Source: a virus
IMG/VR virus record: IMGVR_UViG_3300037852_000186
Location: 35,975 to 99,974 of that record
Reading direction: 5' to 3' (one strand)
Length of the DNA: 64,000 nucleotides
Shown: positions 2,363-63,273 of the stretch, piece by piece
Layout: each line of letters opens with the position of its first letter
Numbering within the stretch: position 1 is the stretch's first letter
The notes under the pieces: model-generated
Told to the model about the DNA's origin: nothing
The model's input: the letters and a program-made list of their open reading frames with translations, nothing else
Database searches by the model: none
Made by a program: the position numbers and the translations under genes

Positions 2363-2673
2363 GGTTTGATTTGAATTATCTCTGGCCCTTCTTGCGCCAA
2401 CATCTTGAGAAGGTCCGTGGCTAGCACTCTCGCAACATCAAGGTTCGGTACGGTCAACGTCAAAGTACCGCCAACACCAGGCATGCCCGCCAAGCGCGGA
2501 TATGAGACGTTGATCTGCATGTCGGCTGTCGGCGGGTCAGCTAGCGGCACGTGAACAGCATGCAGAGTGAAACGCTTCCAACTGTTATTTAAGTCTTCGC
2601 GAGGCTGGCGAGAGACGGCAATCATAACAGCGCGAGGTGCTAGTTGGCCGTTACGATGAATATCAAGACTCAT
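2359..2673 (-). CDS. Hypothetical beta-rich protein
   Basis: A 104-aa protein whose alternating hydrophobic pattern (VMIAVSR, FTLHAVHVPL, INVSYPRL, GGTLTLTVPNL) suggests a beta-sandwich, followed by a helix (VARVLATDLLKML). It starts 1 bp after the upstream stop and overlaps the downstream ATG. No family is recognised; a small structural or regulatory role is possible. Confidence 0.65.
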   Translation of the reverse strand: MSLDIHRNGQLAPRAVMIAVSRQPREDLNNSWKRFTLHAVHVPLADPPTADMQINVSYPRLAGMPGVGGTLTLTVPNLDVARVLATDLLKMLAQEGPEIIQIKP

Positions 2674-3216
2674 TTATTCTTTGCCTTTGGTATCGAGCGG
2701 TACGGCGGAATCTACATTCCACTTTTTCCAGGCTTCGTTAAGGTGCTTCGCGCAAATTGGCGTCTCGCGCGGTCTGTCAGTGAAACGTCCTCGCCCCTTC
2801 ACGCTGTAGACTCGATCTTCCGATCCGCACTGCCGCGTAGACGATGCGCCTTGTGAGTGCTCGGTAATCGGCCAGCCGCAAGAAGGTCGTTTATCTTCTC
2901 GTTCTGATTCGACGCCTGAGATGATTGGATCGCCGTGCATATACTTGATGTTCAAGCCCGCCCGCTTCGCGACATAGCGTGCTAGCAAATAACTTGGGTT
3001 GGCTGCACCGCCTTCCGCGCGAAATTGTTCCGACTCTTGCGGGTCTAGTATCAACATCTGAAAGTTCTTACAGGGGCAGTAAGTGACGGTGCATGCGCCT
3101 AATGGATAATTAGTTTCATCGCCGGCAAGGAACGTTTGCCACACGGTCCTTCTTGGCGAGCCCGCCCGATGTTCGTCCATTGAGTGTACGCACTCACACA
3201 TCCAAGGGAATTTCAT
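2674..3216 (-). CDS. Cys-rich double zinc-binding protein
   Basis: A 180-aa protein with two likely zinc modules. The first, near residues 7-52, has CxC, a His-containing stretch, then CTVTYCPC followed by KNF, a pattern seen in small phage/actinobacterial zinc proteins. The second combines CGWP, a QCG and a late CAKH near the C-terminus. No enzymatic motif is visible. The function is unknown; DNA or protein binding is plausible. Confidence 0.65.
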   Translation of the reverse strand: MKFPWMCECVHSMDEHRAGSPRRTVWQTFLAGDETNYPLGACTVTYCPCKNFQMLILDPQESEQFRAEGGAANPSYLLARYVAKRAGLNIKYMHGDPIISGVESEREDKRPSCGWPITEHSQGASSTRQCGSEDRVYSVKGRGRFTDRPRETPICAKHLNEAWKKWNVDSAVPLDTKGKE

Positions 3217-3217
3217 G

Positions 3218-3448
3218 TTAACTTACGCGCTCCGCAGAGTAGGCGCCGATTTGTTCGTCGAGCTTCAATCTGTAACCCTGTGCTTTAAGAAGGGCGCATA
3301 CTTTCTTGACTTCATTAATTGGCCGCCATCCAGTCTCAGAGCGGATCGCTGCGATCAGTTCACCAGCCATCAGAGCGAGTACTATTTCTTGGGTTGGCAC
3401 AACCCTAAGCTCAGATAAGTCGAAAGTGCTCGTCATTCGCAGCGCCAT
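3218..3448 (-). CDS. Hypothetical protein (76 aa)
   Basis: A 76-aa mostly helical protein of unknown family. Its stop is one base upstream of the next ATG, consistent with translational coupling. It contains RSETGWRPINEVKKVCALLKAQGYR, a helix-turn-helix-like run of helices, but without enough signal to call DNA binding. Confidence 0.6.
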   Translation of the reverse strand: MALRMTSTFDLSELRVVPTQEIVLALMAGELIAAIRSETGWRPINEVKKVCALLKAQGYRLKLDEQIGAYSAERVS

Positions 3449-3454
3449 ATTTAA

Positions 3455-3751
3455 TTATTCCGGATGTACGTTTCCCGGCTCGCGTTCATTGCCCCGATGC
3501 TTGGAATCGCGGTCGTCTTTCCATCGGGGGAAATGTCGCTTGGCTTCACTCGGACGATTATCCGCCCACCAGTATGAATCGTGATATTGGCCAGATTCGT
3601 CAGCACACCATTTATTCTGGATACACTTGGCATGATGCGGGGCTGGGTGGTGATAGTAATGATGCTGGGCGTACGCGGGAGCCGAAGTACTTGCGCTTAC
3701 ACAGCCGGTTAGAAGAATCAGAGTGAGTATTGCGGTTAGTCGGTTTGCCAT
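3455..3751 (-). CDS. Small His-rich lipoprotein
   Basis: A 98-aa exported protein. The start at 3751 gives MANRL followed by a hydrophobic stretch and the lipobox LTGC (about residues 13-16), so it is probably lipidated and anchored in a membrane. The mature part is short, His/Tyr-rich at first (HHYYHHPAPHH), then strongly charged. No domain is recognised. Surface exposure or metal binding is possible. It follows the gp37-like gene directly. Confidence 0.65.
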   Translation of the reverse strand: MANRLTAILTLILLTGCVSASTSAPAYAQHHYYHHPAPHHAKCIQNKWCADESGQYHDSYWWADNRPSEAKRHFPRWKDDRDSKHRGNEREPGNVHPE

Positions 3752-3758
3752 AGTTCCC

Positions 3759-4619
3759 TTAGTTGTTTGGATAAAACGGTACGTTGCCACCACTCGCCAG
3801 TGCGGTCACGATATCCGAATACGTATAGCTGACCGCCACTGTTGCTCCACTCGCAATCCCGCCTCCGTTTACTCGCGTGATTATTCCGTTGACGTTGTCG
3901 AGTAAGTAGTCGGTTTGCGCGAGATAGGTGGTGGTCAACGCTTGATTCTTGATTATGAGGTCTGTGATATTGCCTTGCGGCAGTGCAATCGTGTCCGACG
4001 CGAAGGTCAGCAACTCCACACCTATTTTCGTCGCGGTAACTCGCAATGCAGATTCCTCTAATACCTTGCCTTGCACGAAAGGAGGGAACGTCGGCGTTTG
4101 GAAGTTCTCAATAACAACAGTGCGAGTACTGAAGGTTGACTCGTAGACCCAGACACCACCTTGCTTATCGCGGTCGATGAAGCGTTCGCGAATTGCTTTC
4201 ATGGGTGTGCAGCCTGTGTTGGCTTGAAAGCCCAGCAGAGCAAGGCGCACAGCTTCAATTATTTGGTAAGCCCCTGGACTCGTGCCGCTCGGCGGTCCGC
4301 CGAATGCCCAGCCTAAATCGCGTATGCGGAGGCCAACAGCAAATTCTAGTGTACGTTCCTGTGCGACATGGCCGATATCTTCGATGACGCCAAAGTCTGA
4401 GCCCATGAAAATAACCATCGCTACTCCGATGCGATGGCGCATTTCGTAAGCCTCGGGCTTGTCGGGGAAGTGTGTAACTTCTATCATCTGTGGGCCGAGC
4501 GCAGCGCCGAGATAAGTCTGTAGCTGTCGAACTATCGCCGCCTCGATGGTTGCGATACCCAGATCTGTGGGCGGGTTGAATGTTTGTCCGGTCCAAGGAC
4601 TATCTAGAAACGCCGCCAC
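3759..4619 (-). CDS. Mu gp37-like (DUF1834-type) phage protein
   Basis: A protein of about 286 aa if started at GTG 4619, three bases after the upstream stop; ATG 4664 is an alternative that overlaps that gene by 43 bp. The N-terminal half (DLGIATIEAAIVRQLQTYLG, then a core with Y-E-M-R-H-R-I-G-V-A and GAYQIIEAVRLALLGF) matches the pattern of Mu gp37-like/DUF1834 proteins, which follow gp36 in Mu-like head-tail clusters and are thought to act in head completion or tail joining. The C-terminal ~80 residues (repeated TTTYL..TDYLLDNVNGIITRV) look like a beta-rich appended domain. Confidence 0.65.
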   Translation of the reverse strand: MAAFLDSPWTGQTFNPPTDLGIATIEAAIVRQLQTYLGAALGPQMIEVTHFPDKPEAYEMRHRIGVAMVIFMGSDFGVIEDIGHVAQERTLEFAVGLRIRDLGWAFGGPPSGTSPGAYQIIEAVRLALLGFQANTGCTPMKAIRERFIDRDKQGGVWVYESTFSTRTVVIENFQTPTFPPFVQGKVLEESALRVTATKIGVELLTFASDTIALPQGNITDLIIKNQALTTTYLAQTDYLLDNVNGIITRVNGGGIASGATVAVSYTYSDIVTALASGGNVPFYPNN

Positions 4620-10922: not shown

Positions 10923-12740
10923 TTACTGATCCTCCCCGGCGAGATAGGTTTCGACCGAGCGCGCCTTTTTGGCCGCGGCGAATTGCTCTACGGTAACTCC
11001 CAGCTTTCGAGTGACCATCAACTCCTGATGAGTTACGGCATTTTCGGGGGCTTCGCCGATTTGCCCCGTGAATTTGCCGTCAGCGCCGGCCGTGATAATT
11101 CTGGGTGCTTTATCAATGAAGGTTTTGAAGGCATCGGGATTTGTGGTGCAAAGAGTGATGCCCCAATCGCGCAACGAAGGTATCAATCGACCTTCGCGAA
11201 TGCCTGCATCCACTTTTTGGATGGCCGCATCCTTTGCCCTTTCTGCCCGCAGATTATTTATTTCGGCCATCGCCTCGATCATTTGTGGGTCTTGCGCGAC
11301 CAGTGCTGAAATTTCTGCCTTCGTCATTTCCTTTTCTCGTTTGGGCACTCGGAGAAACTCACGCTTCATGGATTCTGGAAGCACAGCCACTGGTTTCTTC
11401 TCGGGCTCTTTGGTCATTTGCTGCGGTGGAGGCTTGCTAGCCATTTCTGCTCGTTTAGCGAATCGTTCTTTCTCGGCTGCGTGGCGAGATGTACAGGCGG
11501 CTTTTTCGTCGTCTGATGCGCACCGGGCCATTTCATCAGCCTGTCTCGCAGCCATCGCGTCTGCGCTTTCGTTGGCATAGGGATCTGCCCCTGGATTGGG
11601 TGCGGGCGCGGCGTACTGCGCCGCGTGCTCATCACCGTCTGGCTCCGCGTGTCCGTCGCCTTCGTCGCCGTCGGGCTCGCCATCAGGGTCAGGCTCCATC
11701 TCCATGAGGACGTGCTTCATGATTTGATGATGCTCGGCGCCAGGCATAGCAGCCTCGAATCGTTTGACGATGTCGGATAGCTCTTCTTTCTTGCCACCTT
11801 CGGCCATTGTTGAATAAACCTCCGCAGCGGCTATCGCCGGCAGGCTCACGAGAGCGGGATTATTGGTGAGGGCCGCGCGCAAGATGCGCTCGACCTTGCC
11901 GTCTTTGTCGTGCTCGAAAACCGGCGAGATGTACCGGTAAAGCTTTTCTTTCAGCCCCTCGGCGGCCGCTTTGGTCCACTCGATGCGCGCAAAAATAGCC
12001 CCCGCCTCGACCTTGAAACCTTTTATCCAACCAGCCGCAGGCGCAGGCCGGCCCTCGGGGGCAGCTAGATCGGTGGAGTGATCATAGTCAAGGACCAGCC
12101 CGACCTGTGGCATTTTCGCGATTGAGGCGGCGACGGTGCGAAAGGGATTGTCATTCTCGAAGGGGCCACGACCATCAACGGCGGAGAACTTGCCAGCGGG
12201 GATTATCTCTATCCACTCGGGCGCGTCGTCGCCGGGAATGGCGATGGTACACATCGCGATGCCAGCGCCGTTCTGAGTGAACCTTGGGGAGTGGATATAA
12301 CAATTTTCAATAGGACAGGTAGTCAATAAGGCGCTCGCTGGTTCCGCCGTCACCTTCGGAGTAGGCATCGGTCCTTCGTGCTTGATACCGAAGCGCTTTG
12401 CAGCGCTAATAATTTTGCTCCACGCGGACTTGGCCGCGCCTTCAGACGTGAAGTGAGTCTGCCCGAATCGAGCAAGCGCGTTGCGGACGTGCGCTGCGTC
12501 GCCTATCGGCAAGTGTTTTCCACCCTTTGGATCGGTCCAAGCATAGCTGCTTGTGCCGCTGCCTTCGGCGAAACGTGAGATGAGCCGTCTGACTGCTGCC
12601 GCCTCGCGCATGCGGCCAAAAATGTGCATGACCAGGGCGTAGAAGGAATCCCCTTTGAGATGAGGCGATGATTTGCGAGCGAGCTTCTTAGCACGTTGCC
12701 ATTTACGCTCATCAGATGGAGTTTTGACGACACCCGGCAC
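10923..12740 (-). CDS. Mu gpI-like prohead protease/scaffold with N-terminal DUF6582-like domain
   Basis: A 605-aa protein starting at GTG 12740, with AAAGGTGAG nearby upstream. Residues ~1-125 contain a DUF6582-like module (LPIGDAAHVRNALARFGQTHF.SEGAAKSAWSKIISAAKRFGI). Residues ~130-320 match the Mu_I protease (IPAGKFSAVDGRGPFENDNPF, VGLVLDYDHSTD, AAGWIKGFKVEAGAIFARIEWT, RYISPVFEHD). The remaining, acidic then charged-helical, half is the scaffold. The protease would cleave the scaffold during prohead maturation. The extra N-terminal domain is unusual for Mu-type gpI. Confidence 0.85.
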   Translation of the reverse strand: MPGVVKTPSDERKWQRAKKLARKSSPHLKGDSFYALVMHIFGRMREAAAVRRLISRFAEGSGTSSYAWTDPKGGKHLPIGDAAHVRNALARFGQTHFTSEGAAKSAWSKIISAAKRFGIKHEGPMPTPKVTAEPASALLTTCPIENCYIHSPRFTQNGAGIAMCTIAIPGDDAPEWIEIIPAGKFSAVDGRGPFENDNPFRTVAASIAKMPQVGLVLDYDHSTDLAAPEGRPAPAAGWIKGFKVEAGAIFARIEWTKAAAEGLKEKLYRYISPVFEHDKDGKVERILRAALTNNPALVSLPAIAAAEVYSTMAEGGKKEELSDIVKRFEAAMPGAEHHQIMKHVLMEMEPDPDGEPDGDEGDGHAEPDGDEHAAQYAAPAPNPGADPYANESADAMAARQADEMARCASDDEKAACTSRHAAEKERFAKRAEMASKPPPQQMTKEPEKKPVAVLPESMKREFLRVPKREKEMTKAEISALVAQDPQMIEAMAEINNLRAERAKDAAIQKVDAGIREGRLIPSLRDWGITLCTTNPDAFKTFIDKAPRIITAGADGKFTGQIGEAPENAVTHQELMVTRKLGVTVEQFAAAKKARSVETYLAGEDQ

Positions 12741-20215: not shown

Positions 20216-21967
20216 TTATCGAGGCAAGAACCCCGCGATGTTTTGAATCATATGTGCCTCCTCGATCTTAATTGGCGCGCGGTCACGACCAGCGCAACAG
20301 AGATAGCCGTGGAAGCGTTCAAGGAGAAGCAATTCCGCTGGCGTAACCAAATGACGGCTGAGCCGATGCGGCGCGAGATTCAGCCCTTCCCGATAGTCGC
20401 TAACACCCGTGACCATCGTAGTATCGAAACGATCCGCTTCTTGGCTGTTTAATACTTTGCTCGCCCATTCTGCTGTTTCGGCTCCTCCACATTGCAAGAT
20501 GACTTTAGTCGCCGCACCGTTGGTGAGCACGCTTGCTTCATCGCGTCCGTAAATTCGATTAAGCTGGGCGACATCCTGAAAGCCGAGGTATACAGCGATG
20601 CCCCTCTTTCGCCCCCGCGCGATAGCCTTCTCAACATTGCTCTGGTGACCGAGACTCGGAAGTTCGTCGAGCATAACATGAACCCGTTGAGTATAAGTTT
20701 CTTGAAACATTAGCCATCTAATCAGTGTGTCGATCCAAATGGCTTGCAGGGGAAAAAGGGCGTCCTTAGTGTCTTCACTAGAAGTGAGGAAAATCCATCC
20801 TTCTGGTTTAGCCGCCCATTCGCGAGCACTCCACGTGCGCGCGCCTTGTGTCGGTAAATGATAGAACGGTTTGAGTGCGTTCGACGCGGTCGCGACGATT
20901 CCAGAACCTTGGTCGTGTGCTTGCGGATCGATTAGGTTATACGCAGCATCTGTGAGCACGCCTCGATTGGCTCGAAACTGTTTCTGCATCTCGATACGCG
21001 GCATCGCAAGAAATGAGTGCAAGGCTGGAATGTCCCTCGCTACTGCGAAGATACCTTCAATCAAAGTACGCGCTGATAGACGGAAGAATTCACCTGAGTC
21101 GCTAGCAGCTCCTCTCGGATTCGGTCGAACAAGAGAAGCAGCCATCGCTTGTACATCAACCTCGAACATGGTGGGCCGGAACTCGAACCAAGGCGTCCAT
21201 CTCAGATCGTAACGCTGGTCGAATGGATTGAGAATGATGTCGCTCGGCTTGTAGAACTCTTGAACAAATTCACAATCAGGATCGAAAATAACCGCGATTT
21301 CTCCACGCTGCCGAATCTGTCGGAGAAGATGACGAAGAATAGTAGACTTGCCCATGCCAGATTTGCCAGCGATAAGCATGTGCTCGGTTTCGATGTTAGG
21401 TTCTAGGGTGACATCACCGATACGCAGCCCGGTTGATACGGGCGCCTTGGGTGTGACGTACGGGCGGACTCGCTGCCAGTATGAACGCCATCCGTGTATC
21501 CGATAGTTAAGCGCGGACGCTGAAATCATTTGAACTCCTCGAATGTGTTGCAGCTCCTTTGCGCTTCGTTGTGCGAAGAGTGCAACTCCAATGATTGCGA
21601 TTGGCGGTAACAGTGGCCAGCCCCAACAAGATTGTACACACCACGCCGGAAAGCTTTGATGATAGCCGGCTGGACCGGATAGCCATGCACTCAACGATCC
21701 AAGTTCATACCATTGTCTGTTGAAGGGGACGGGCGCATTGGTGAGGTATGTACCGACAAATGGAATATTCGCGATCAAGCTGTACGGCGCCCACGACCAG
21801 AAATATACATGATGTAACAGTGGATAAGTTCTTCGCCACACAACGATAAGCGTGCAAACTACCCAAGCCAGCAGCGCACCACGGAAGATTTTGCTCCATA
21901 TACTGCTGGCCATCCGACCCATAATTCCGACGGCTTGTAGTCGCGCAATTCCAGCCGAATATGCCAT
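20216..21967 (-). CDS. Type IV coupling protein (VirD4/TraD/TrwB-like)
   Basis: A 583-aa membrane ATPase. Two N-terminal TM helices (about residues 28-50 and 118-135) precede the motor domain with Walker A GKSGMGKST and a Walker B region VHVMLDELPSLGH. It links the relaxase-DNA complex to the T4SS channel. The relaxase gene lies downstream with only an HNH gene between, the usual coupling of these two functions. GSGIVATASNALKPF and GARTWS match TrwB/TraD spelling. Confidence 0.9.
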   Translation of the reverse strand: MAYSAGIARLQAVGIMGRMASSIWSKIFRGALLAWVVCTLIVVWRRTYPLLHHVYFWSWAPYSLIANIPFVGTYLTNAPVPFNRQWYELGSLSAWLSGPAGYHQSFPAWCVQSCWGWPLLPPIAIIGVALFAQRSAKELQHIRGVQMISASALNYRIHGWRSYWQRVRPYVTPKAPVSTGLRIGDVTLEPNIETEHMLIAGKSGMGKSTILRHLLRQIRQRGEIAVIFDPDCEFVQEFYKPSDIILNPFDQRYDLRWTPWFEFRPTMFEVDVQAMAASLVRPNPRGAASDSGEFFRLSARTLIEGIFAVARDIPALHSFLAMPRIEMQKQFRANRGVLTDAAYNLIDPQAHDQGSGIVATASNALKPFYHLPTQGARTWSAREWAAKPEGWIFLTSSEDTKDALFPLQAIWIDTLIRWLMFQETYTQRVHVMLDELPSLGHQSNVEKAIARGRKRGIAVYLGFQDVAQLNRIYGRDEASVLTNGAATKVILQCGGAETAEWASKVLNSQEADRFDTTMVTGVSDYREGLNLAPHRLSRHLVTPAELLLLERFHGYLCCAGRDRAPIKIEEAHMIQNIAGFLPR

Positions 21968-35748: not shown

Positions 35749-36372
35749 ATGCCAGAGACCAATAACGGCTACAATGCAGCTAACCAAACAAACAGGAAGT
35801 GGGTACCATTTGGCAATTTCGTCGTAAATGCTGGAACCTTGGTCGTATTGATAGGGACCTTGGGAACAATCATCTGGTATACGCCCGTCACCAGCCGGAT
35901 TCTTGATGCTGATACGCGACCCTATGTTGCCGTAACTGGCTCTGATTATATTACCTTCAAAGCCGGGGACCGTTTGGTCGAGCCCGTTAATCTCGCCAAT
36001 TCCGGTAAATTGCCCGCCGATGCCCTCATTCAGGGCGTTGTTACTTTTCAACCAAGTAAGCAGGCTGAGGCTGGTTCTTTTCCAGATGAAATGACGCATC
36101 TGTTCATTTGGCCCAGCCCTATTGAGAATCCATATATTACTGTCAAGAGTGTGAATGCGCTCAGCAATGAGAATTTTGAATTGCTGAAAAGCAGTGCGTT
36201 CTATGTATATATAGCGGTGCGTGTTCGATATGGCGGACATACTACGCGAATCTGTAAAGAGTACACTTTTGACATCAAATCGCGGACACCTGCCTGTTCG
36301 AGCGATAGTTGCAGCAGTCAGATGCCCGAACCAACATTGTGCAAGGATCCACATTCCAACTATGCCGATTAA
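35749..36372 (+). CDS. Single-TM protein with periplasmic beta domain
   Basis: A 207-aa protein: an N-terminal cytoplasmic stretch, one TM helix (VVNAGTLVVLIGTLGTIIWY), then a domain beginning RPYVAVTGSDYITFKAGD and containing VNLANSGKLPADALIQG. This pattern, with a P-Y-V-A-V and an N-x-G-K-x-P-A motif, recurs in uncharacterised membrane proteins. An overlapping minus-strand frame exists but is less convincing. It is cargo of the transposon. Confidence 0.6.
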   Translation: MPETNNGYNAANQTNRKWVPFGNFVVNAGTLVVLIGTLGTIIWYTPVTSRILDADTRPYVAVTGSDYITFKAGDRLVEPVNLANSGKLPADALIQGVVTFQPSKQAEAGSFPDEMTHLFIWPSPIENPYITVKSVNALSNENFELLKSSAFYVYIAVRVRYGGHTTRICKEYTFDIKSRTPACSSDSCSSQMPEPTLCKDPHSNYAD

Positions 36373-61153: not shown

Positions 61154-61347
61154 TGTCCGAGGCTGAGAATCTGCGCCTTTTGTTTTATGAGAGCGAGCAG
61201 GTCCGCAGAGCGCTCTGGGCGCAACTCGAACAGGAAAAGGTTTATCGCGCAAGCGCGAAGCTGACTATTGAGGCGGTGCTGAAGCGGGCGGAGAGAGCGG
61301 AGGCTGAGGTCGCGCGGTTGAAGTGGGTAATGGGATTGTTGGGCTAG
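61153..61347 (+). CDS. Coiled-coil protein (64 aa)
   Basis: MSEAENLRLLFYESEQVRRALWAQLEQEKVYRASAKLTIEAVLKRAERAEAEVARLKWVMGLL is one long heptad helix, like small phage lysis-accessory or scaffold proteins. It converges with the minor-head gene and overlaps its stop by 4 bp. Confidence 0.65.
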   Translation: MSEAENLRLLFYESEQVRRALWAQLEQEKVYRASAKLTIEAVLKRAERAEAEVARLKWVMGLLG

Positions 61348-62795
61348 GCCGACTCTTCCTGGTCGTCTTCGTCGGGTTCTCCTTCTGTCTCGTCGGCTGT
61401 GTCGGTAGCTTCTTCTGCGGCCTCATAGTCAATATCACAAACGCAGTTATGAACGACTAATCCTTGGGCCAAATACCAATGAGTATCGGTTTCTAAATCA
61501 TGGACGTACTCCGTTATCCCCGTGTGATTGTCGATGCCAATAAGCTTCGCGAGATGTATCTGGCTGGGAAAACTGAGAATCAGATCTCGAAAGAGTTGGG
61601 TATCGCCCGCGCTAGTGTCCGCAGTCGTTGCCTTAAATTGGGTCTCGTTCCTCGTACACTGTCCGAAGCTCAGCTTGTGCGGAATTCCCTTCGTACCCCA
61701 GAACAGCGCGCGGCTGGTGCGCGTGCTGCCCATGATGCAGCGCGCGGTAGAAAAGCCACATTCTTGGAGCTTTGTCAGCGGGCGATGACTATATCTACCA
61801 TGCCAAAGGCCCTGACAGCTATAGAGCGAATGCTCTACGAACCACTTCAATCTACGAATTTGACGATAGAACGTGAGCACGCTTGCGGCCCGTACAATAT
61901 CGACTTCGCTGTTGATGGTTCCGTCGCGGTTGAATGTTTTGGAGGAGGTTGGCACGCAACTGGACGAGCCGCCGCCCGCTTTCAAAAGCGCGTGCGGTAC
62001 TTGATCGATGCGGCTTGGCATGTTGTAGTCGTTTGGATTGACCGTCGCTACAACTCGGACCTGACGATCCGGGGGGCAATAGAGTATGCGGTCTCCTTGT
62101 CTCAAGAAACGCGCCTCCGACCAGCCATGCTGCGTCAGTATCGAATGATTTGGTGTTATGGTAAGAGAGTTGTTGTGACCGGCGATGCGAATAGTCAAGA
62201 GTTCCCCTTGATACCGTCTGCGCATATGAGCCGTTACGCCACTACCAGTGACAATACTATCTCCTACTAGACAATTCGGATGTGGCGAGTCTCCTTCGGG
62301 AAAATCTTCATCAATGCCAATCCATCCCGCCGCGATATTTTCTTGGCAAAGCTCACAAGCTGATTCGTCTCCGTTCCATCTTTTACGACCAGCGCCTGCT
62401 ACTTTTGCGGCTTCTAGACCGCCCGCTCGCAGGGCAACTTGCATCTCAGTACGAGCAATAGACAAGGCCCTGGTGGGGCTAAAAGCGTAAGCTTCTCGCA
62501 ATTCATCTCTGAGCCTGCCAGCCGACCAGCCTTCTTCCAGCGCCTGCACAACCGCCCCCCGCAGCATCTCGGGGGTGGTAGCCGCGAAGTCCTTAATCAG
62601 CTCCCCTGCGCGGCGCTCTGCGTAGGCAACCGCCCGATGATCAATGACATGCGCAACGTCCGCCTTGACGCGGAGCTGGCGTACCACGGTATGGCCGTTG
62701 CGGCGAAAGGCGCGGATGGTATGCGGCTTGATATCGTCGGCCAGGATGGCGAAGCCGTCGCTGAGGTCGATGTTGCAAATTTCGCGGGCGTTCAT
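61344..62795 (-). CDS. gpF-like (SPP1 gp7/Mu gp30-type) minor head protein containing an intein
   Basis: 483 aa as encoded. Residues 1-174 are the first extein: VAYAERRAGELIKDFA..TPEMLRGAVVQALEEGWSAGRLRDELREAYAFSPTRALSIARTEMQVALRAGG..WNGDE.ACELCQE..SPHPN. The second extein starts at Cys451 (CVCDIDYEAA), rejoining the family motif HPNCxCDI. Residues 175-450 are an intein. After splicing the protein would have 207 aa. It helps DNA exit and head assembly next to the portal. The N-terminus is shorter than in Mu gp30. Confidence 0.88.
   Translation of the reverse strand: MNAREICNIDLSDGFAILADDIKPHTIRAFRRNGHTVVRQLRVKADVAHVIDHRAVAYAERRAGELIKDFAATTPEMLRGAVVQALEEGWSAGRLRDELREAYAFSPTRALSIARTEMQVALRAGGLEAAKVAGAGRKRWNGDESACELCQENIAAGWIGIDEDFPEGDSPHPNCLVGDSIVTGSGVTAHMRRRYQGELLTIRIAGHNNSLTITPNHSILTQHGWSEARFLRQGDRILYCPPDRQVRVVATVNPNDYNMPSRIDQVPHALLKAGGGSSSCVPTSSKTFNRDGTINSEVDIVRAASVLTFYRQIRRLKWFVEHSLYSCQGLWHGRYSHRPLTKLQECGFSTARCIMGSTRTSRALFWGTKGIPHKLSFGQCTRNETQFKATTADTSAGDTQLFRDLILSFPSQIHLAKLIGIDNHTGITEYVHDLETDTHWYLAQGLVVHNCVCDIDYEAAEEATDTADETEGEPDEDDQEESA
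61446..62273 (-). other. Intein inserted at the conserved HPN|C motif
   Basis: 276 aa from Cys175 to Asn450. Block A: CLVGDSIVTGSG. Block B: LTITPNHSILT with the TxxH residues. Block F: YVHDLETDTHWYLAQG. Block G: LVVHN followed by Cys451, so the nucleophiles are Cys at both ends and the C-terminal pair is His-Asn. No LAGLIDADG or HNH endonuclease is present in this frame: residues ~240-425 have no recognisable domain and are the reverse complement of a gene on the other strand. Confidence 0.9.
61500..62270 (+). CDS. Homing endonuclease encoded antisense within the intein
   Basis: 256 aa. Residues ~12-50 are a DNA-binding helix-turn-helix (ANKLREMYLAGKTENQISKELGIARASVRSRCLKLGL). Residues ~105-205 form a Vsr/DUF559-like nuclease: ERMLYEPL..LTIEREHACGPYNIDFAV (Asp135), VAVECFGGGWH (Glu145, His152), RFQKRVRYLIDAAWHVVVVW. 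This is the fold of free-standing phage homing nucleases. It starts opposite intein block F and its TAG is the complement of the second intein codon. Codons are in exact register with those of the intein. Confidence 0.75.
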   Translation: MDVLRYPRVIVDANKLREMYLAGKTENQISKELGIARASVRSRCLKLGLVPRTLSEAQLVRNSLRTPEQRAAGARAAHDAARGRKATFLELCQRAMTISTMPKALTAIERMLYEPLQSTNLTIEREHACGPYNIDFAVDGSVAVECFGGGWHATGRAAARFQKRVRYLIDAAWHVVVVWIDRRYNSDLTIRGAIEYAVSLSQETRLRPAMLRQYRMIWCYGKRVVVTGDANSQEFPLIPSAHMSRYATTSDNTISY

Positions 62796-62841: not shown

Positions 62842-63273
62842 ATGGCTGGAAAGTTGTGTCGCAAGTGCTTAGTAGAAAAGCCATTAACTGAGTTTTATGA
62901 GCGTGAAGGGCGGCAAGGTACTCCACTGTATAGTTCTTGGTGTCGTCCGTGTACCCGCCGAACCGCGTTAGGCTGGCGTGCTCGTAATCTCGAAAAACGA
63001 TGGGCACATACACAGGTGGCCGCCGCGTTGAAATATGGACAGATAACACGTCCAGAGCGCTGCGAAGCTTGCCGTCGCGAGACAACTCCAATTGCGCATC
63101 ATCCGAATTACGAGCGTCCACTTGAAGTCATGTGGCTTTGTGATAGCTGCCACCATCTTCTCCATAAAGGACATCAAGAGATAGAAGCGCGGTGGCGAAA
63201 TAATAATCCCGCCGCCGCTATGGCTCTCGATAATGCCAAGAAAGATGCACAACCGAGAGGCGACAACATCTAA
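62842..63273 (+). CDS. HNH-type endonuclease (143 aa)
   Basis: N-terminal CRKCLVEKP..FY and CRPCTRRT make one zinc site; the HNH-like core is RCEACRRETTPIAHHPNYERPLEVMWLCDSCHHLLHKGH. The tail has NPAAAMALDNAKK, related to the NPAA small-protein motif at 16062. It is divergent from the minor-head gene and may be a homing or packaging nuclease. Confidence 0.8.
   Translation: MAGKLCRKCLVEKPLTEFYEREGRQGTPLYSSWCRPCTRRTALGWRARNLEKRWAHTQVAAALKYGQITRPERCEACRRETTPIAHHPNYERPLEVMWLCDSCHHLLHKGHQEIEARWRNNNPAAAMALDNAKKDAQPRGDNI

Follow-up and report, generated by a model that had tools for sequence, protein, structure and literature searches.

An intein in a phage MuF-like head-protein gene with a putative homing endonuclease encoded in register on the opposite strand

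In the usual view, an intein either carries its endonuclease in-frame or is split, with a separate gene between its parts. Dassa in 2009 and Taylor in 2011 reportedly described split inteins and fractured genes associated with I-Bth0305I, an EDxHD (Vsr-like) endonuclease. In the ShiLan element, an HNH endonuclease is hidden in another frame of an insertion that has no splicing domain (PMC11855218), and the capsid morphogenesis proteins of Jerseyvirus and Kagunavirus have been annotated with an intein (PMC8425127). Here we analyse a stretch of 64,000 nucleotides (hereafter, the window; positions 35,975 to 99,974 of IMG/VR virus record IMGVR_UViG_3300037852_000186), in which the minus strand of a MuF/gpF-like minor head protein gene encodes an intein and the plus strand of the same DNA encodes a nuclease-like protein. 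Judged from the sequence, the locus is best read, with a probability of about 0.88, as a mobile intein at the conserved MuF N/C site (here and below, a slash marks the insertion point) whose homing endonuclease would have its own gene on the opposite strand, with the codon boundaries of the two coinciding.

The intein and the opposite-strand nuclease gene

The head protein of 483 amino acids (aa) matched phrog_15127 (9e-23) and phrog_2662 (1.9e-19), and Pfam Phage_Mu_F at 3e-4, which is under the curated cut-off. Its intein runs from Cys175 to Asn450, between Asn174 and Cys451 (Cys+1), with the intein motifs in order (C175LVGD...TPNH...YVHDLE...LVVHN450/C). The minus frame matched Pfam Intein_splicing at 9e-9 (35.7 bits, just under the curated cut-off of 35.8), TIGR01443 (intein_Cterm) scored above its cut-off on the whole head protein, and an intein profile compared with the PDB matched the Mtu RecA intein (7.5e-11). 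In the intein alignment (A1), C1 is nearly invariant, T40, P41, H43, G50 and N276 are invariant, and V257 and L260 are conserved; C+1 follows the intein in the loci read. AlphaFold2 modelled both ends confidently, the predicted local distance difference test score (pLDDT) being about 79–92 in the N-terminal splicing region and about 83–93 in residues 241–276, and the top Foldseek matches of the model were the GyrA and RecA inteins (probability 1.00, E about 2e-3). The features of a class 1 intein, i.e., Cys1, the block B TxxH, a terminal Asn and the HINT fold, are all present. The contiguous intein with blocks A, B, F and G that the original prediction had placed in a gpF-like protein was borne out by direct reading and by the Intein_splicing match.

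The plus-strand protein matched the Pfam MTES_1575 nuclease family (4e-7, below cut-off) and DUF559 (1.5e-4), with a weak GcrA-like match also seen, and its AlphaFold2 model had a mean pLDDT of 83.6. The best Foldseek match of its nuclease core was the catalytic domain of I-Bth0305I (3r3p; probability 1.00, TMt 0.63, E only 1e-2), and a nuclease profile matched 3r3p at 7e-7; on the modelled fold, this solved EDxHD/Vsr enzyme appears to be the closest. Six residues are invariant in the nuclease alignment (Y132, N133, D135, E145, R164 and Y214), and 11 of 23 members among the homologues match helix-turn-helix (HTH) families. Asp135, Glu145 and the HTH are all retained in the window's open reading frame (ORF), which is of full length, and homologues 36–49% identical to it occur in other viruses. 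Together, the profile and fold matches agree with the 256-aa HTH and Vsr/DUF559-like protein that had been proposed from the letters alone.

The two frames share their codon boundaries throughout the overlap. The ATG of the nuclease gene is the complement of the intein His258 codon, within block F, and its TAG stop is the complement of the Leu2 codon, exactly where the original prediction had put them. With the frames in register, any TTA, CTA or TCA codon in the nuclease gene would be a stop in the minus frame, so that the in-frame linker limits the Leu and Ser codons of the nuclease to the others. As had been noted, none of the 22 Leu and 16 Ser codons in the window's nuclease gene is one of these three; with the codon usage of other ORFs in the window, about 6.4 would be expected, and zero has a probability of 8e-4 for this single copy.

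This avoidance holds across 41 intein-embedded loci, in which 0 of 1,485 Leu/Ser codons are TTA, CTA or TCA; the loci are partly non-independent, several Jersey-type phages being close kin, and the AT-rich ones (GC 34–47%) account for 0 of 559. In the same 41 genes, GTA, GCA, GGA, CCA, ACA and CGA make up 9–27% of their four-fold sets. With flanking ORFs as the reference for codon usage, the probability of finding none at a single locus was 1.9e-12 for locus L041, 3.6e-10 for L032, and 2e-7 to 8e-8 for L012 and L016; these AT-rich loci represent distinct lineages. Two free-standing homologues provide a control: 12 of 39 Leu/Ser codons are TTA, CTA or TCA in that of Acinetobacter phage BUCT629 (L045), which has 12 antisense stops, and 13 of 42 in its IMG/VR relative (L054), and the two genes differ from one another at 6/6/27 sites by codon position. 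The AT-rich loci and these controls rule out an effect of GC content as the source of the open antisense frame.

Both free-standing genes are convergent with the end of an intein-less MuF gene, the L045 nuclease at 2501-3394 with a 7-base overlap and the L054 nuclease at 3001-3891. The antisense intein may have arisen from the Acinetobacter-phage nuclease, or that nuclease may have escaped from the intein. We also observed that third positions in the 41 embedded nuclease genes favour C or T, so that linker codons start with G or A and tend towards small and polar residues, a bias that possibly reflects selection for a soluble, disordered linker.

Counted by intein codon position, substitutions in four pairs of relatives numbered 90/63/359 in the exteins; the N-terminal and C-terminal splicing regions had 28/7/33 and 11/5/19, respectively. 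The middle of the intein gave 177/43/84 (position 1 versus 3, p = 9e-9). Because intein position 1 is nuclease position 3, the intein middle evolves as a nuclease gene, and the plus-frame nuclease of the relatives is, by this pattern, under purifying selection, which is thus not confined to the minus frame. AlphaFold2 gave no confident structure for intein residues 131–223 (pLDDT <50), and no endonuclease domain was found within the intein's own frame, that segment being unstructured and the nuclease lying on the plus strand. The most conserved linker motif, F(H)GD...(E)V(E)IV, is encoded by the reverse complement of the DNA for the active-site strands of the nuclease, with Phe114 opposite Glu145 and Val124 opposite Asp135. 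Given that the middle evolves in the nuclease frame, FHGD..EVEIV is a shadow of the active site, and its reading as a separate conserved domain was rejected. The sequence indicates that the minus frame is read through, two splicing halves being joined by a linker that merely complements the nuclease gene.

Distribution, mobility and expression in relatives

A tblastn search with the plus-strand protein found at least 107 phage records, and one with the intein found 98, mostly those of the nuclease search, the two matching the same DNA on opposite strands. Nuclease homologues also occur in IMG/VR contigs and plasmid-borne phages. The hosts of the phages include Salmonella, Escherichia, Pantoea, Klebsiella, Edwardsiella, Vibrio, Pseudomonas, Aggregatibacter, Gordonia, Mycobacterium, Rhodococcus, Streptomyces, Helicobacter (prophage) and Chloroflexota (plasmid). 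The same antisense layout is present in all 41 embedded loci compared, which cover phages of Gammaproteobacteria, Actinobacteria, Helicobacter and Chloroflexota as well as metagenome viruses. A further 22 loci were read, and in each the host frame is open and the longest antisense ORF inside the intein encodes, in that same register, a homologue of the nuclease. The host gene is a single uninterrupted ORF in complete intein-embedded loci, and Intein_splicing matches the host frame in 20 of 21 members.

A second survey of IMG/VR and phages used nuclease proteins only, because selecting for open inteins was to be avoided. All 20 loci obtained (some being duplicates of phages already in the set) showed an intein in a head-protein gene on the opposite strand, which had zero stops across the nuclease match, and 7 of 8 loci in a further batch, together with locus L055, likewise had zero stops and an intein opposite the nuclease. 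Scans of IMG/VR with the window's intein protein and of GTDB genomes with two nuclease queries gave no match, because a peptide-pattern search reaches close relatives only. Since the layout is kept in phages of very different bacteria, it appears to be a real and unusual build of mobile intein; an uninterrupted intein read through the complement of its endonuclease gene, suggested earlier as a distinct architecture for this locus, is supported family-wide.

Empty sites are common. A 100-aa query spanning the insertion point found 533 records with an uninterrupted extein (a result valid for query residues 17–100), and Salmonella phage ER10 has an exact empty junction, HPN/CRSTTAP, the empty sites being shown for Jersey-type relatives and not for the window's close kin. 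LPSE1 and Escherichia phage GZMU_E2010 have inteins that are 96% identical, in host genes with N-exteins 66% and C-exteins 82% identical. Together with the empty sites, this near-identity in 66%-identical host genes indicates that the intein moves. At a shared site, the inteins of the Gordonia phages Keitabear and Fosterous are only 50% identical, the exteins being 95–96% identical. Most copies lie at the conserved MuF N/C site (N/CRC in many), and other sites in the gene are occupied in fEg-Eco06 (STT/CRARDG), Sejanus (V/CTIDGKTR) and L055.

The block F His codon in HVYNL is, in most relatives, complementary to the start codon of the nuclease (ATG or GTG), and the Asn-Leu-Glu/Gln codons that come next are complementary to a Shine-Dalgarno sequence (GAGG, GGAGG or AAGG), e.g., GAGGTTATAAACATG. 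With the start and the Shine-Dalgarno sequence both opposite it, block F does double duty. The block-F Shine-Dalgarno site is missing in L039, L040 and L041, of which L039 and L041 have other Shine-Dalgarno-like starts. In Salmonella phage vB_StyS-sam (L006), a piece of the nuclease at 3126-3527 (-) is annotated as hypothetical protein BBO65996.1; some gene callers, in this case at least, see part of the antisense gene.

Proposed homing cycle and rival explanations

On our reading, the minus transcript would yield a head-protein precursor from which the intein is spliced out post-translationally, and an antisense transcript would serve for translation of the plus frame, which in most relatives would use the Shine-Dalgarno sequence and start opposite block F. 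The nuclease would then cut intein-less MuF alleles near the N/C junction, and repair from an intein-bearing copy would install the intein and the nuclease gene together.

Several points weigh against this reading. The window copy reads TTCTAAATCATG, with no Shine-Dalgarno sequence at any candidate start, its ATG closely follows an in-frame TAA, and the start is shifted; a consensus scan of one relative found no sigma-70 promoter on the nuclease strand. Splicing, expression and cleavage are all inferred, the nuclease target site is deduced from insertion sites alone, and the selection test draws on relatives rather than the window copy itself. Lacking a Shine-Dalgarno sequence, the window's nuclease may be expressed weakly or by another route. 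These details suit a degenerate element past homing, real in layout but with a nuclease no longer expressed and a frame kept open only by continued splicing, and L040 likewise has no Shine-Dalgarno sequence. We regard such decay of the window copy as unlikely, though it deserves serious consideration: the ORF retains its full length, both acidic residues and the HTH, its 36–49% identical homologues are found in other viruses, and translation may begin by reinitiation or on a leaderless transcript.

The remaining alternatives deny one part of the layout or the function of the antisense protein. That this protein is a domesticated phage regulator or DNA-binding protein, and not a homing endonuclease, is suggested by its HTH domain and weak GcrA-like match and by a PD-(D/E)XK lysine that is not obvious; the invariant, active-site-like Y132, N133, D135 and E145, and a sporadic distribution with intein transfer between divergent phages, as homing predicts, make it improbable. 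If only the nuclease were real, the open minus frame would be a by-product of codon usage and the intein split or dead. High-GC genes do often have in-register complements that are open by chance, and several GC-rich loci are non-significant on their own (P about 0.3), yet the AT-rich loci avoid the three codons entirely, the free-standing homologues use them freely, and nearly all members match Intein_splicing, with splice residues and host frame intact in the loci read; we consider this very improbable. Conversely, many genes have long antisense ORFs and none of the records inspected annotates the nuclease as one, so the antisense ORF might be a chance open frame opposite the linker of a genuine intein. 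Against this, its matches are to nuclease and HTH families, its confident model has a known nuclease fold, it has free-standing coding homologues (L045 and L054) with the third-position excess given above, and the intein middle evolves in its frame, which leaves chance hardly credible.

We therefore keep to the antisense homing endonuclease within a mobile intein. Whether its relatives form an old and widespread class, with both strands coding in one register, block F serving as antisense ribosome-binding site and start, nuclease synonymous sites constrained by the open linker, the free-standing Acinetobacter-phage genes as source or escape product, and the class undescribed as such, is a broader proposition to which we give even odds. 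The layout matters since a single stretch of DNA encodes a protein on each strand, with the register kept across phages of several bacterial phyla. It offers a rare and statistically strong case of antisense in-register coding in double-stranded DNA phages, in which each strand has a clear function and free-standing homologues serve as a natural control, and it suggests a route by which an intein could gain an endonuclease without tolerating a folded insert. It also makes expression of an antisense homing gene inside a head gene testable, and annotation pipelines that consider one strand will miss the nuclease.

The features of the locus are collected in Table 1.

Table 1 Features of the head-protein gene, its intein and the antisense nuclease gene (window positions).
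Feature	Position	Strand	Remarks
MuF/gpF-like minor head (morphogenesis) protein gene, intein host	61344..62795	-	483 aa
Contiguous intein, 276 aa	61446..62273	-	Conserved MuF N/C site (HPN/C ... HN/C); without sense-frame stop
Intein N-terminal splicing region, residues 1-70	62064..62273	-	Block A Cys1; block B TPNH, residues 40-43
Intein linker, residues 71-235	61569..62063	-	Translated complement of the nuclease gene
Intein C-terminal splicing region, residues 236-276	61446..61568	-	Block F YVHDLE; block G LVVHN
Cys+1 codon, first C-extein residue (CVCD...)	61443..61445	-	Direct reading
Antisense homing-endonuclease-like gene, 256 aa	61500..62270	+	In codon register with the intein
Helix-turn-helix, residues 12-47	61533..61640	+	Putative DNA-binding part; three-helix bundle H13-21, H26-33, H37-46
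PD-(D/E)XK/Vsr-like nuclease core, residues 107-227	61818..62180	+	Asp135 61902-61904; Glu145 61932-61934

Beside the head gene lies a second endonuclease gene, a 143-aa endonuclease-VII/HNH-like ORF (62842-63273, plus strand; phrog_2340, 1.5e-26) that starts 47 bases from the MuF start codon and is divergent from it. An ORF open at the contig end (63617-64000, minus strand) has a zinc/HNH-like pattern (CPYCG...LCADCH) and weak Pfam matches only, and is possibly another HNH endonuclease near the head gene. Elsewhere are a VirD4/TraG-type coupling protein (20216-21967, minus strand; TrwB_AAD_bind, 2e-75) and, in the same virus record, a Mu-like protease (10923-12740), Bet/RecT and an integrase; the virus is possibly an integrative or plasmid-like phage.

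Comparison with described systems

The annotated Jerseyvirus and Kagunavirus inteins are members of the same element, and the record of Escherichia phage Snoke already annotates the head-protein intein; in the records inspected, the antisense endonuclease is unrecognised. No description of the antisense layout was found in the literature searched, which excluded bioRxiv 2025.01.02.630785 and Gorbalenya 1998. PMC11855218 cites both Gorbalenya 1998 and a preprint by Gosselin et al., on actinobacteriophage inteins with 'non-canonical architecture', for overlapping frames in actinobacteriophages. The phages of the Gosselin et al. survey probably include the Gordonia relatives found here, and bioRxiv 2025.01.02.630785 may already have described the layout in Gordonia phages.

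The element resembles canonical bifunctional inteins such as PI-SceI and the Mtu RecA intein in its conserved site, in a splicing domain interrupted at the endonuclease position and in a sporadic distribution with empty alleles. In those inteins, however, the endonuclease is a part of the intein in the same frame, whereas here it would be a separate opposite-strand protein and the in-frame segment a linker. The split inteins and fractured genes with I-Bth0305I share the nuclease fold family and the association with inteins in phages. There the nuclease gene lies between two gene pieces, and here the host gene and intein are unbroken with the nuclease antisense inside them; a split intein or fractured gene was rejected on the single uninterrupted host ORF of complete loci. 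The ShiLan element is also a mobile phage insertion, open in the host frame, with a hidden endonuclease in another frame, but that endonuclease is read from the host gene's own transcript. Since Intein_splicing is matched in 20 of 21 members and the nuclease is on the opposite strand, a ShiLan-type insertion was rejected as well, and what sets the present element apart is a real intein with a nuclease gene on the opposite strand in register.
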